Positions 14,184 through 20,073 of a stretch of 64,000 nt of DNA are shown one piece after another. Positions within the stretch are counted from its first letter, which is position 1. Each line of letters opens with the position of its first letter. The translations under genes were made by a program, and so were the position numbers. This DNA comes from Actinotalea alkalitolerans (GTDB lineage Bacteria; Actinomycetota; Actinomycetes; Actinomycetales; Cellulomonadaceae), in the NCBI RefSeq assembly GCF_023369855.1, contig NZ_JAMBPP010000005.1, positions 1 through 64,000 on the forward strand. The letters are read 5' to 3'. The notes below the pieces were generated by a model that had not been told where the DNA came from, made no database searches, and worked only from the letters and a program-made list of their open reading frames with translations.

Positions 14184-16480
14184 CCTCGACCCGTCCCCGC
14201 GCCCACCGGCTCGCCCTGGTGCTCACGCTGCCGCTGCTGCTCGTGCTGCCCCTGCTCGCGGTGGTGGGTGCACCCGTGGCAGCGGCGACCACCACGCCCG
14301 AGGACGGGTCGCTGCCGGTCGAGGTCACCGTCACGGGGGTCAGCCCTCAGGTGCTGCGGCCAGGTGAGGACCTGACCGTCACCGCGACCCTGCACAACAC
14401 CGGGTCGGCGACCCTGGCCGAGCCCCGGGTGATCGTCCGCATCAACCGTGACGGGTTCATCAGCCGCAGCTCCCTGGACACCTGGACCGACGCCGGGCCC
14501 GACGGCCGTTCGGGTGCGGCGATCCTCGACATCGACCTGCCCTCGGCCCTGGCCCCCGGTGCGACCGTCACCGCTCGGGGAACGGTGCCGGCGGGGTCGA
14601 TCGGTCTGCGCACCGGTGCGACCTCGTGGGGTCCGCGCGGGCTCGCCCTGGAAGTGGTCGACGTTGCTGACCCGGCGCGTGCCCGGCAGGGCCTGGGCCG
14701 GACGTTCGCCCTGTGGTTCCCCGAGCAGGAGGTGACCGGGACCCGGCTGACGGTGCTCGTGCCGGTCGTCGGCCCGGTCGGCGACCGCCAGCAGCTGGTG
14801 GCAGAGACCTCCGTCGGAGGTCGACTGACGGACGTGCTCGCCGCGACCGGGGAGCACCGTGAGGTGACCTGGGTGGTCGACCCCGCGGTCCTGGAGGGCG
14901 CCGTGCCCGGCCAGGGCACCCCCGAGTCCTCGGCCGACGGTCCGGTTCAGGGCGACGACGGCCAGGACGGCGACGACCAGGACGCCGAGGCCGAGGACGC
15001 CGCCACCGACGACCCGACCGCGACCGACCCGTCCGCCGAGACCACCGACCCCACGACCGGGGCGCCAGCCCCCACGGCCGACGCCGCCTCGGACTGGGCC
15101 GACGACCTGGTGGCCGCCATGGTCGGGCGCGACGTCGCGCTGCTGCCGCACAGCGATCCCGACCTCGCCGCCCTGGCGCACGTGGGCGCCGGAGACCTCC
15201 TGGACCTCGCCATCGACCGCAGCGCCCAGGCGGCTCGTGAGGGTCTGGTGCCCGAGGGTGCGAGCACCACCCTCGCGTGGCCCGCCGACCCCTTGCCCGA
15301 CCTCCCCACCGCGGCGTTCGCCCTGCGCCACGACGCACGCGCCCTGGTCGTCGGCCCGGGTGAGCTGACCCCGCCCTCGGTCCTGACCTACACGCCCACC
15401 GGGCGGGCCACCCTGCCGACCGCCAGCGGTGACGTGACCGCGATCATCGGCGACGAACGTCTCTCCACAGCCCTGCGCGCGGGTTCCGTGCCCAGGACCG
15501 TCGGCACGGACGCGCTGTCCGACGAGCGGGAGTCCGCGCGTGCCGCCAGCCCGGCCGCGTCACCGGTCGAGGCCACCCAGGCGCTGCTCGCCGAGCTCGC
15601 GGTGATCACCCGCGAGCGCCCGAGCGACTCTCGTCACCTGCTGGTGGTGGTGCCGCGTGACTGGCACCCCGACCCGACGACCGCCTCGGCCCAGCTCGAG
15701 GGACTGGGCTCGGTCCCGTGGGTGCAGATGGAGCCGGTCGCGGCACTGGTCGGTGCAGACGACCCCGAGGTGGACCGCGGCTCCCTGCCCGAACGCACCG
15801 TCGACCCCACCGAGGTCGACGCCGCGACCCTCGAGAGCTCACGCGCAGCGGTGGCCGAGCGTGAGCTGTTCGCCCAGATCGCGCAGGACCCTTCCGCGCT
15901 GCTGGGTGACCCCACGACCGAGCTGCTCGCCCCGACCTCGGTCGCGTGGCGGGCCGACCCGGCCGGCCGGGCAGCGCTGGTCGAGGCCGCCGTGACCCGC
16001 ACCCGCGCCCTGACCCAGGTCGTCACGGTCATCCCGGGGAGCACCCTCAACATCATCTCGGCCTCGGGTGACCTCCCGGTGCGTCTGAGCAACGCGCTCG
16101 ACCAGCAGGTCACGGTCGTCGTGGCGCTGCGCCCCGGGAACTCCCAGCTCCGGGTCGACGACGACGTCGCGGTCACCATCGAGGCCAACGGTGAGGCCCT
16201 CGCCCAGATCCCCGTGCACGCCATCTCGAGCGCCGACGTCGACGTGGTGGTCGAGCTGCAGGCCGCGGACGGCACGGTGCTCGACCGGTCGACCTCCTTC
16301 ACCGTGCGCGTGCGGGCCGACTGGGAGGGCATCGGTACCGCGGTGATCGGCGGCCTGCTCGCACTGGGGCTGGTCTTCGGGCTGGCGCGTTCGATCCGGC
16401 GCGGACGCACGGGCCGCCGCGCGGCCCCGGTCGACTCGGGTCCCGACGCCCTGTCCCCCGAGCAGGTCGTCCAGCCATGA
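14180..16480 (+). CDS. DUF6049 family exported membrane protein
   Basis: A 766-residue protein with an N-terminal signal sequence (hydrophobic LVLTLPLLLVLPLLAVVG, residues about 12-30), a large extracytoplasmic region and a C-terminal membrane segment (about 712-732) with a basic cytoplasmic tail. An acidic Asp/Glu/Thr/Pro linker lies at about 250-315. The family is defined by its constant position between NUDIX and murJ in Actinobacteria. A role in envelope assembly with the MurJ protein is inferred from that conserved context. Both ends overlap neighbours by 4 bp (ATGA), indicating coupled translation. Confidence 0.88.
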   Translation: MTSTRPRAHRLALVLTLPLLLVLPLLAVVGAPVAAATTTPEDGSLPVEVTVTGVSPQVLRPGEDLTVTATLHNTGSATLAEPRVIVRINRDGFISRSSLDTWTDAGPDGRSGAAILDIDLPSALAPGATVTARGTVPAGSIGLRTGATSWGPRGLALEVVDVADPARARQGLGRTFALWFPEQEVTGTRLTVLVPVVGPVGDRQQLVAETSVGGRLTDVLAATGEHREVTWVVDPAVLEGAVPGQGTPESSADGPVQGDDGQDGDDQDAEAEDAATDDPTATDPSAETTDPTTGAPAPTADAASDWADDLVAAMVGRDVALLPHSDPDLAALAHVGAGDLLDLAIDRSAQAAREGLVPEGASTTLAWPADPLPDLPTAAFALRHDARALVVGPGELTPPSVLTYTPTGRATLPTASGDVTAIIGDERLSTALRAGSVPRTVGTDALSDERESARAASPAASPVEATQALLAELAVITRERPSDSRHLLVVVPRDWHPDPTTASAQLEGLGSVPWVQMEPVAALVGADDPEVDRGSLPERTVDPTEVDAATLESSRAAVAERELFAQIAQDPSALLGDPTTELLAPTSVAWRADPAGRAALVEAAVTRTRALTQVVTVIPGSTLNIISASGDLPVRLSNALDQQVTVVVALRPGNSQLRVDDDVAVTIEANGEALAQIPVHAISSADVDVVVELQAADGTVLDRSTSFTVRVRADWEGIGTAVIGGLLALGLVFGLARSIRRGRTGRRAAPVDSGPDALSPEQVVQP

Positions 16481-19400
16481 GCGCCCAGGGCGGATCGGCC
16501 GGCAAGGGCGAGAGCCTGGGGCGCAGCACCGCCGTGATGGCGGCGGGCACCGCCACCTCACGCGTGCTCGGCCTGGTCCGCGCATCGGTGCTGGCCGGCG
16601 CGATCGGGGTGACCGCCACCTCCGCGAACGCCTTCGCGCTGGCCAACTGGCTGCCCAACGTCATCTACATGCTCATCGCCGGCGGCGTGCTCAACGCCGT
16701 CCTGGTCCCCCAGGTGGTGCGCGCGTACCGCACCGCGGGGGGCCAGGAGTACGTGGACCGCCTGCTCACCCTGGGCGCCGTGCTGCTGCTCGGGGTCACA
16801 GTGGTGGCCACGGCCGCCGCGCCGCTCATCGTGAACCTCGCCTCGGACGTCGAGAACCAGGGCTTCCTGGTGCTCTCGACCACCTTCGCGCTGTGGTGCA
16901 TCCCGCAGGTCTTCTTCTACGGCATGTACACGCTCCTGGGGCAGGTGCTCAACGCCCGGGGAACCTTCGGGCCGTACATGTGGGCGCCGGTGGTCAACAA
17001 CATCGTGGCGATCGCGGGCCTGGCGGTCTTCATCGGTCTGTTCGGCCGGTACACGGTTGACGGACCCACGAACAGCTTCGAGTGGTGGGACCCGACACGT
17101 GTCGCGTTGCTGGGCGGTACCGCGACGCTCGGGGTGGCGTGCCAGGCGCTGGTCCTGCTCGTGCCGCTGTACCGCAGCGGGTTCCGCTACCGAGCTCGGG
17201 GCGGGTGGCGCGGGGCCGGGCTGGGCAGCGCCGGACGAGTCGCGGGGTGGACCTTCGGGGCGCTGCTCATCGGACAGCTTGGCATCCTGGTGGTGACCCG
17301 CATCGCCACGTCGGCCCCCGACAACGCGGCCGCCGGTGAGGTCGTCGCCGGCAACGCGGCGTACAACTACGCCTTCCTGTTCTTCATGCTCCCGCACTCG
17401 CTGGTCACGGTCTCCCTGCTGACCGCGCTGTTCACCCGGCTGTCCACCCATGCCGCCGGGCAGGACACCGCCGCCGTGCGAGCTGACACCTCCTACGGGC
17501 TGCGCACGATCGGGGTCTTCACGATCTTCGCGACCGCGGTGCTGGGCGTGCTGGCCCTGCCCGTCATGCGGCTCGTCTTCCCCTCGGTCCCCCCGGCGCA
17601 GATCTCGGTCCTGGTCCCGGTGGTCGTCGCGCTGACCGCAGGCCTGGTCGCCCTGGGGGCCTGGTCTCTCGTGCAGCGCGTCTTCTACGCCTACGAGGAC
17701 GCCAAGGGCCTGTTCTGGTTCCAGGTGCCGATGACGGTCGTGGTCGCGGGCGGGGCCTGGGTCGGGTCGATGGTCCTGGCGCCCCGGTGGTGGACCGCCG
17801 CTGCGGGCGCGGCGATCGCCGCCTCCTACCTGCTCGGCGCACTCGTCGGAGGAGCGGCGGTACGACGTCGGCTGGGCGGGCTGGGCGGCGGGGTCGTCCG
17901 GCTGCACGTGCGCGCCGCCCTGGCAGCCCTGGTCGCCGCCGGTGTGGGATGGCCGCTCAGCCGCCTGTTCGGCGACCTGTCCTCGGCCGGCGTCGTGCTC
18001 TCGTTCGTGGTGTGCGCGGTCGTCGGCCTGGTCATGCTCGGCCTGTACGTGGCGATGCTGCGGGTGCTGCGGGTCACCGAGCTGCAGGACCTCGTCGCTC
18101 CACTCCTGCGCCGCCTGGGACGTAGCATGGGCACGCCGGGAGCCGCGGCGAACGATCCCGACCAGCGGCCGGGCGCGCACGGAGGAGATTCCTTGGACGT
18201 CGTCGTCGGACGCGGAACGTTGCTGGCCGGGCGGTACCGGCTGCACCAGCCGGCGCCCATCGACCTCCCTGAGGTCGAGGCGTGGGACGCCAGGGACCAG
18301 ATCCTGGACCGACCCGTGCGGGCGCTGGTCCTGCGGGGCGAGCGCGTCACGCAGGCCCTCGACGCCGCACGGCGCGCCGCGCTGGTGACCGACCCCCGTC
18401 TCGTCCGGGTGCTCGACGTCGGGGAGCACGAAGGCGTCCACTACGTCGTCACCGAGCCGCTCCAGGGCCGTGACCTGGCCACGCTCACCGCGCACGGCCC
18501 GCTGCCGGCCGACCAGGCGCGGGCGATCATCGGCGAGGCCGCGGTGGCCCTCGAGGTCGCCCGACGGCGCGGGGTGCACCACCTCGCGCTGCGGCCCTCC
18601 TCGATCCACGTCACCCCCGACGGGTCCGTGCTGGTGTCCGGGCTCGCCCTCGACGGCGAGCTCACCGGGCACGGTCTGGGGGACGCCCGCTCCACCACCC
18701 GGGCCGACACCGTGGGCCTGGTCAGCCTGCTGTACCTGACCCTCACCGGTCGCTGGCCCGCCCCCGAGGGGACCGACGCCGGACGCGTGCCGGTCGCCCC
18801 CGTCGTCATGGGCAGCCCGGTAGCACCTGTCGAGCTCGTCCCCGGGGTGCCCAACGATCTCGACACGCTGTGCGCCGTGACCCTGGGCCCGCACGACGAC
18901 GGGCCGCACAGCCCCGCCGAGCTGGTTCTCGAGCTCGAGCCGTGGGGGCCGATCGCCGCGCAGGAGATCTTCGGCGCGCTGGACGCCAGGTCCGGCTGGG
19001 CCGACCAGGTCGAGGCGCACGACTCCGCCGTGGCCGACGCCGCGGCCGGGAACGCCCCACGCGCCGACCCGACGCCCCCGACGGACGACCTCCCCGTGAC
19101 GACCACCGTGCAGCGCCAGTCGGTGCGCAGCACCCTCGCCGAGCAGACGACCGCCGGGTCGCCCCGACCTGGCACGCCACCCCCGGCCGTGCCGCCCTCG
19201 TACCAGCCCCGGCGCGACGACACCTCGACCACGGTCAGTGCCGCCGCGAGCCCACGCCCCTCCGTCTCCTCCCCGACCCCTCGGTCTGCGCCCGCCCGCT
19301 CGGCGGTCCCCGAGAGCTTCGACGTGCTGGTCGGACGGTCGACCGAGGCGCTGACCACCAAACGCTTCGACCCCACGCCCTTCGTCCTGGCCTTCGTGGC

Positions 19401-20010
19401 GCTGGTCGTCATCGTCGGTGTCTTCGTCGCCTTCCAGCAGCTCACCCGACCGGTCCCTCCGATCGGCGGCGGGGAGCGCGTCGGGGGACCGACGGTCACC
19501 GAGGAGCCGGCCGAGACCGATGAGGGGACCCCGGACGCCGAGGAGACCCCGGAGGAGGAGCCCGCTGTCCCCGAGGAACCTTCCGGCGCACCGCCCGTGA
19601 TCGCCTCGGGTCAGCAGCTCGACCCCGAGGGTGACCAGAACGAGCACCCCGAGGCCGTGGACCGTGCCCTGGACGGCGACCCCACGACCTTCTGGTTCAC
19701 CCGGACCTACGTGTCCCCCACGTACGGCATGAAGTCAGGCGTCGGGTACGCGGTCACCCTCGCCGAGGTCGCGACCGTCACCTCGGTCTCGCTGCAGTTC
19801 ACCACCACGGGTGGCAACGTCGAGGTCCGTGCGACCGACCCCGCCACACCCAACGAGGGGGAGGTCCTGGCCGCCGGACCGATGGGCCCCGACACCGTGT
19901 TCACGTTCGACCCCGTCGACACCCAGCACATCGTGCTGTGGTTCACCGAGCTGCCCCAGACGGCCGACGGTCGCAACCGGGTCGAGCTCACGCAGGTGTC
20001 GGTCTCCTGA
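16477..20010 (+). CDS. murJ: MurJ lipid II flippase fused to a pseudokinase and exported domain
   Basis: A 1177-residue protein with the architecture of mycobacterial MviN. Residues about 10-545 form the multi-spanning MurJ/MVF flippase that moves lipid II outward. Residues about 573-830 form a protein-kinase fold whose catalytic loop reads HLALRPSSI in place of HRDLKPxN, so the catalytic Asp is lost. A Pro/Ser/Thr linker leads to one membrane segment at about 968-986. An acidic spacer and a C-terminal discoidin-like beta domain (about 1050-1177) follow. In mycobacteria the pseudokinase is phosphorylated by PknB and binds FhaA; both partners are encoded at 54.9-64 kb here. The linker at 556-572 looks like translated intergenic DNA and contains a perfect ribosome site. 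Confidence 0.93.
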   Translation: MSAQGGSAGKGESLGRSTAVMAAGTATSRVLGLVRASVLAGAIGVTATSANAFALANWLPNVIYMLIAGGVLNAVLVPQVVRAYRTAGGQEYVDRLLTLGAVLLLGVTVVATAAAPLIVNLASDVENQGFLVLSTTFALWCIPQVFFYGMYTLLGQVLNARGTFGPYMWAPVVNNIVAIAGLAVFIGLFGRYTVDGPTNSFEWWDPTRVALLGGTATLGVACQALVLLVPLYRSGFRYRARGGWRGAGLGSAGRVAGWTFGALLIGQLGILVVTRIATSAPDNAAAGEVVAGNAAYNYAFLFFMLPHSLVTVSLLTALFTRLSTHAAGQDTAAVRADTSYGLRTIGVFTIFATAVLGVLALPVMRLVFPSVPPAQISVLVPVVVALTAGLVALGAWSLVQRVFYAYEDAKGLFWFQVPMTVVVAGGAWVGSMVLAPRWWTAAAGAAIAASYLLGALVGGAAVRRRLGGLGGGVVRLHVRAALAALVAAGVGWPLSRLFGDLSSAGVVLSFVVCAVVGLVMLGLYVAMLRVLRVTELQDLVAPLLRRLGRSMGTPGAAANDPDQRPGAHGGDSLDVVVGRGTLLAGRYRLHQPAPIDLPEVEAWDARDQILDRPVRALVLRGERVTQALDAARRAALVTDPRLVRVLDVGEHEGVHYVVTEPLQGRDLATLTAHGPLPADQARAIIGEAAVALEVARRRGVHHLALRPSSIHVTPDGSVLVSGLALDGELTGHGLGDARSTTRADTVGLVSLLYLTLTGRWPAPEGTDAGRVPVAPVVMGSPVAPVELVPGVPNDLDTLCAVTLGPHDDGPHSPAELVLELEPWGPIAAQEIFGALDARSGWADQVEAHDSAVADAAAGNAPRADPTPPTDDLPVTTTVQRQSVRSTLAEQTTAGSPRPGTPPPAVPPSYQPRRDDTSTTVSAAASPRPSVSSPTPRSAPARSAVPESFDVLVGRSTEALTTKRFDPTPFVLAFVALVVIVGVFVAFQQLTRPVPPIGGGERVGGPTVTEEPAETDEGTPDAEETPEEEPAVPEEPSGAPPVIASGQQLDPEGDQNEHPEAVDRALDGDPTTFWFTRTYVSPTYGMKSGVGYAVTLAEVATVTSVSLQFTTTGGNVEVRATDPATPNEGEVLAAGPMGPDTVFTFDPVDTQHIVLWFTELPQTADGRNRVELTQVSVS
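18181..18195 (+). promoter_or_regulatory. Internal Shine-Dalgarno plus TTG inside the murJ fusion
   Basis: GGAGGAG (18181-18187) lies 5 bases before an in-frame TTG at 18193, exactly at the boundary between flippase and pseudokinase domains. Translation from here would give a 605-residue protein starting MDVVVGRGTLLAGRYRL, the normal N terminus of a kinase fold. The sequence is directly visible; that it is used is inference. Confidence 0.6.
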
Positions 20011-20047: not shown

Positions 20048-20073
20048 GGAACAGATGCCGCCTAGGATCCGTT
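20048..20073 (+). promoter_or_regulatory. Sigma-R-type promoter of trxBA
   Basis: GGAAC at 20048-20052, exactly 18 bases, then GTT at 20071-20073. This matches the actinobacterial sigma-R/sigma-H disulfide-stress consensus GGAAT-N18-GTT with one mismatch. It lies 77 bp before the trxB start codon. Control of thioredoxin genes by this sigma factor is established in Streptomyces and mycobacteria. Confidence 0.7.

Follow-up and report, generated by a model that had tools for sequence, protein, structure and literature searches.

Conserved signals for a putative internal promoter and a probable second translation start at the joint of a MurJ-pseudokinase fusion gene in the genus of Actinotalea alkalitolerans

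In the stretch of Actinotalea alkalitolerans DNA analysed here (64,000 nucleotides, hereafter the window), sequences for MurJ and for a pseudokinase form a single open reading frame, with trxB directly downstream (Table 1). The MurJ part scores 208.1 bits against PF03023 (cut-off 27.4) and 218.6 bits against the NCBIfam model murJ_mviN (TIGR01695), slightly less than the cut-off of 235.55 set for that model. The catalytic motifs of the kinase part are degenerate by our reading of the sequence, with HLALRPSS in place of HRDxxxxN and GLA in place of DFG. When this part was used as a phmmer query, StkP outscored Rv3910 (2e-15 versus about 1.4e-11), and a Foldseek search with an AlphaFold2 model of the 605-residue part returned Rv3910 chains as the best 8 matches. 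The model, with a mean pLDDT of 78.8, places the beginning of the predicted kinase fold at most about 10 residues from the TTG listed in Table 1. A Ser/Thr-rich VRS motif, QR(T/Q)SVRS, is conserved 3' of the pseudokinase in Cellulomonadaceae (around 19090-19140 in the window, alignment columns 380-400); the MviN/Rv3910 type carries a phosphothreonine by which FhaA is recruited, and this motif may be phosphorylated to bind a partner of the FHA kind.

Table 1. Features of the fused reading frame and its surroundings, in window coordinates
Feature	Position	Strand	Details
Fused ORF, MurJ-pseudokinase, 1177 aa	16477..20010	+	begins with ATG 16477
MurJ (lipid II flippase) domain	16477..18114	+	PF03023, E 2.6e-61, residues 40-499
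-10 hexamer TAGCAT of putative internal promoter	18123..18128	+	sole TAnnAT in the fused ORF
Fusion linker, read also as 5' leader of the putative free pseudokinase message (predicted transcription start)	18130..18192	+	
Shine-Dalgarno sequence GGAGGAG	18181..18187	+	spacer ATTCC (5 nt) to TTG
TTG, putative start of free pseudokinase	18193..18195	+	in frame with ATG 16477
Predicted free product, 605 aa	18193..20010	+	
Pseudokinase domain	18217..18984	+	phmmer to 3OTV/3UQC/3OUN (Rv3910 intracellular domain), E ~1.4e-11, residues 9-264
Membrane helix, residues 395-418 of free product	19375..19446	+	AlphaFold2 model and hydrophobic stretch
C-terminal beta domain, model residues 470-604, weakly F5/8 type C-like	19600..20007	+	AlphaFold2 model; Pfam E 0.04, below cut-off
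TAGGAT, second -10-like hexamer	20063..20068	+	ordinary upstream position before trxB

The first-pass annotation had drawn attention to a GGAGGAG sequence 5 bases before an in-frame TTG, at the domain boundary of the 1177-residue frame, and these elements are present exactly as it described them. When all frames of the whole fused ORF are considered, GGAGG followed after 3-10 bases by (A/G/T)TG occurs once, at this very site, and the in-frame arrangement with a spacing of 4-9 bases was found 2 times in 115,245 nt of homologous murJ and pseudokinase coding sequence. The exact match of the window's Shine-Dalgarno sequence to the consensus is just 5 bases. The linker before it had been described as 17 residues that look like translated non-coding DNA. 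Its length is in fact 21-26 codons, according to the point at which the MurJ domain is closed; the non-coding look was borne out by the GC content at codon positions 1/2/3, which is.81/.69/.73 for 18115-18192 versus.71/.51/.94 for MurJ and.76/.54/.93 for the pseudokinase part. A GC3 as low as that of the linker is reached in 0.7% of the 26-codon windows of the fused ORF. The leader is not notably more open than its shuffles (z 0.9 and 1.6), so that a special RNA structure there has no support, and the Shine-Dalgarno sequence is paired in the 91-nt minimum free energy fold.

Upstream of the TTG, with 64 bases between them, lies the hexamer TAGCAT, which was absent from the first-pass annotation. 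The 64 kb of the window contain just 36 TAnnnT hexamers, this one included, when the two strands are counted together. For the TAnnnT found before the pseudokinase gene here and in relatives, the simplest reading is the -10 element of a housekeeping (sigma A) promoter; as described in PMC3890552, TAnnnT precedes about 97% of the mapped starts of C. glutamicum, where the -35 element is less conserved. No -35 element was detected, with 0 sites in a sigma-70 (E. coli-type) promoter scan and no conserved -35 column. The in-frame ATG at 18127, inside the -10 hexamer, was also considered as a start codon and rejected: any transcript made from this -10 would begin downstream of it, and several split relatives have the corresponding ATG in another frame.

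To follow the joint across the genus of the window we used 19 genomes, 18 of them readable at the boundary, with one (G015) lacking a murJ or pseudokinase boundary; three duplicate rows were left out of the counts (L062 of L001, L066 of L005 and L075 of L006). In all 18 (the window and 17 other species, Cellulomonas sp. APG4, L005, and Actinotalea sp. MAG-52, L006, among them) the two parts are fused, with the frame open over the boundary. The same in-frame fusion in 17 other genomes refutes an assembly or base-calling error that removed a stop codon and made the fusion an artefact, and we give that explanation practically no weight. MurJ identity across these species is 55-75%, and a branch with 100/100 support sets the fused genomes apart from four split outgroup rows. 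The fusion, which had been suggested to be a recent loss of a stop codon, is by this comparison genus-wide and not recent.

The signals at the joint are conserved together with the fusion. TAnnAT is found there in 18/18 species and elsewhere in the 58,992 nt of these ORFs only once in sense and never in antisense. Its form varies (TAGCAT in 13, TACCAT in 3, TACGAT in 2): the tree requires 4 or more changes at the two inner bases, and TA..AT is constant throughout. The Arg codon that gives the first T of the hexamer is CGT in 18/18, versus at most 3/15 in 17 other conserved Arg columns; as the column was anchored on the motif, its T is given by construction, and its CG and phase are not. The codon homologous to the old start is NTG in all 18 (TTG in the window, GTG in 7 and CTG in 10), with Leu/Val switching and at least 4 changes. 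An exact match of 7-10 bases to the Shine-Dalgarno consensus precedes it in 12 of the 18. Among the controls, 15 of 2,219 other in-frame NTG codons have such a match, as do 20 of 889 windows, each 120 nt long. Matches reach 10 bases in five genus members and never exceed 8 in the controls. These NTG and Shine-Dalgarno counts use the homologous codon and leader lengths entered by hand, with L072 and L077 worked out manually. Conservation of the ribosome site in relatives with the same fusion was thus examined within the genus and the proposal of a second start was not refuted, the promoter hexamer being conserved too. Stronger Shine-Dalgarno sequences accompany CTG starts (Mann-Whitney p 0.0026), a link that lacks phylogenetic significance because the tree leaves just 3 independent pairs.

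The fusion itself also appears to be maintained. Linkers vary from 14 to 103 codons in the genus, and their 606 codons from the 18 species hold 0 in-frame stops. Reading the two alternative frames gives 2 and 9, and shuffled linkers have a mean of 5.8, with zero obtained in 0/1000 shuffles. The absence of stops despite such variable linkers indicates that the fusion frame appears to be selected alongside the internal signals, so that fusion and internal start both seem to be maintained by selection in the genus.

A promoter inside the frame need not serve the pseudokinase: it could be real and mainly drive a regulatory RNA or genes further downstream, trxB for example, with little free pseudokinase being made. 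The evidence for the hexamer is stronger than that for the start codon, and the position of trxB fits this idea. However, the Shine-Dalgarno sequence and the NTG are retained alongside the hexamer, and the trxB region has a TAGGAT of its own, and we regard this explanation as improbable. In the genus, 4 of the 18 loci, some of which end too early to show it, have a TAnnAT behind the fused ORF.

We also compared a named set of 57 loci plus the window (58 MurJ rows). Both MurJ and the N-terminus of the pseudokinase could be mapped in 45, of which 37 are split and 8 fused; the 13 rows without a mapped pseudokinase N-terminus (L014, L017, L020, L021, L023-L026, L031, L034, L036, L044 and L056) were excluded from the hexamer count and from the test of fusion origin. 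One of these, L034, reads as split and has TAGCAT. In another, L036 (Winkia neuii), the fusion joins MurJ to a low-complexity stretch, to a membrane helix and to the C-terminal domain, and tblastn detected no pseudokinase. The murJ of L009, from a record titled Proteobacteria bacterium BP9.bin99, groups with Cellulomonadaceae, and the record name is probably wrong. In the split relatives a stop codon separates murJ from the pseudokinase gene, which has its own start. A 110-nt search window, 20-130 nt ahead of the pseudokinase start, contains TAnnnT in 37/37 split and 7/8 fused loci, where the frequency in coding windows taken from these loci predicts 0.12 and 0.51; in L006, the remaining fused locus, the hexamer is 151 nt from the start. 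The hexamer falls 6 to 120 nt past the murJ stop in 36 of the 37 split relatives; that of L018 reaches into the 3' end of murJ and has one base in common with the stop codon. The fused Georgenia (3) and Flaviflexus (2) loci retain TACACT, for which Georgenia uses ACA, a codon that accounts for 0 to 1.8% of Thr in these genes. The fusions of the window genus, Georgenia and Flaviflexus may share one origin, a topology that the test does not reject (p-AU 0.373; 2 or more changes; loci without a pseudokinase set aside), and therefore we claim neither independent origins nor one fusion with later re-splitting.

These split loci also bear on whether the Shine-Dalgarno-like sequence might instead cause a translational pause that aids MurJ insertion or kinase folding, with no initiation. 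The site sits exactly at the domain joint, and strong Shine-Dalgarno sequences next to CTG in 10 of the 18 species would fit. We nevertheless consider a pause very unlikely, as it leaves unexplained the -10 hexamer, the NTG that follows about 7 bases later and the match in position to the start codons of split relatives.

A wider class sample comprised 60 genomes with 61 loci (32 split, 7 fused and 22 without a pseudokinase match), four of these loci covering second MurJ copies or a neighbouring copy. TAnnnT was found within 260 nt in 25 of the 32 split loci (5.7 expected), and in 15/15 of those whose pseudokinase begins no more than 300 nt from the murJ stop (4.1 expected). In L117, L123 and L124, just 10-12 nt separate TAGGAT or TAGCAT from the estimated start of the kinase, a distance like that seen with leaderless messages. 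The seven fusions, all of other families, had TAnnnT within 260 nt in 0/7 cases, which makes the arrangement lineage-specific. Three of them (L091, L092 and L106, family f22) have a conserved protein linker (ETGTLSIFRRP...EFFLDET), with neither TAnnnT nor a Shine-Dalgarno sequence at the joint. Three mycobacteria-like fusions (L137-L139, family f6) have in common cccgTACCCTg, at a distance of 330-420 nt from the kinase domain on its upstream side; after it come AAAGGA or AAGGAGG and, 273-345 nt before the domain, an in-frame GTG-A(A/G)C-GAC. This is a possible internal start, by which these fusions may have kept the same device at another place; TACCCT encodes a common Tyr-Pro here, so that protein constraint may explain the hexamer.

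The lack of a nearby hexamer in the seven fusions is also what would be predicted if the promoter, Shine-Dalgarno sequence and start of the window genus were the decaying remains of a once separate gene, with the fusion as sole product. The change of GTG to TTG or CTG in 11/18 species and the GC profile of the linker, which resembles non-coding DNA, agree with such decay. Decay is hard to reconcile, however, with retention of TAnnAT and NTG in every species at this level of MurJ divergence, with turnover confined to the free bases, or with a 10-base Shine-Dalgarno match kept in five of them, and we think that there is only a slim chance that these signals are relics.

We consider it probable that the gene gives two products, a MurJ-pseudokinase fusion and a free, membrane-anchored pseudokinase from an internal promoter and start. 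The genus frame runs through the old intergenic region, and hence translation from the MurJ start must yield the fusion, which full-length messages would supply. RNA polymerase would also start just downstream of TAGCAT, at the 3-11 nt expected of a housekeeping promoter, and the resulting short message would have a leader some 58 nt long, made of the DNA that also encodes the linker. Ribosomes would bind GGAGGAG on this message and start at the TTG, producing a free single-pass pseudokinase of 605 residues like that of the split relatives. Such a free product with its membrane helix had been proposed in the first-pass annotation, and the comparison supports it as a prediction. Its presence would partly uncouple the amounts of MurJ and pseudokinase: the tethered copy would mark the flippase, and the free copy could pair with the tethered one or serve other partners. 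The pseudokinase of Rv3910 forms back-to-back dimers, as described in PMC12599244. Several observations count against the dual-product reading, namely the lack of a -35 element, the weak TTG and 5-base Shine-Dalgarno match of the window, the weak start in 11/18 species (CTG in 10/18), the pairing of the Shine-Dalgarno sequence in the predicted fold and the 0/7 count in fusions of other families. More tentatively, and with odds that we would place against it, MurJ-pseudokinase fusions of several actinobacterial lineages could be dual-product regulators, in which the product of an internal promoter, a free pseudokinase, would compete or pair with the tethered copy and a trade-off between start-codon and Shine-Dalgarno strength would set the ratio.

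If it is true that the genus retains the pseudokinase in both forms, tethered and free, as products of a single gene, the ratio of the copies would be part of peptidoglycan control, and the natural variation in start codons and Shine-Dalgarno sequences makes such control testable. The locus would then be a gene fusion caught with its old and new products both seemingly under selection, and an example of how annotation of the long ORF alone can hide a gene.

Our results can be compared with three known arrangements. The MviN/Rv3910-type fusion, whose pseudokinase family is ActPs3 (motif forms are described in PMC12599244), has the same MurJ domain, degenerate kinase, membrane helix and C-terminal beta domain as the window, and its pseudokinase tail is presented in PMC12599244 and PMC10166564 as a regulator of peptidoglycan synthesis in mycobacteria. 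The window differs in its short joint with a conserved -10, Shine-Dalgarno sequence and NTG; no paper on an internal promoter or second start in mviN/Rv3910 was among those listed by the literature searches. Section 8 of PMC10166564 states that the MviN pseudokinase extension is confined to arabinogalactan-bearing mycolata, a claim contradicted by the fusions in the window genus (Cellulomonadaceae), Georgenia and Flaviflexus. In many actinobacteria, according to the S6 Fig legend of the same paper, a separate 'protein kinase family protein' gene lies downstream of a short mviN/murJ. It corresponds to the window in pseudokinase, gene order and preceding TAnnnT, but a stop codon stands between those genes, whereas the reading frame of the window continues uninterrupted over leader and start. 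Finally, the 186 intragenic starts given for C. glutamicum in PMC3890552 likewise place a promoter inside coding sequence, with a possible shorter product; in contrast to these, the origin of the internal promoter as that of a once separate gene, and its retention throughout the genus, are visible here.
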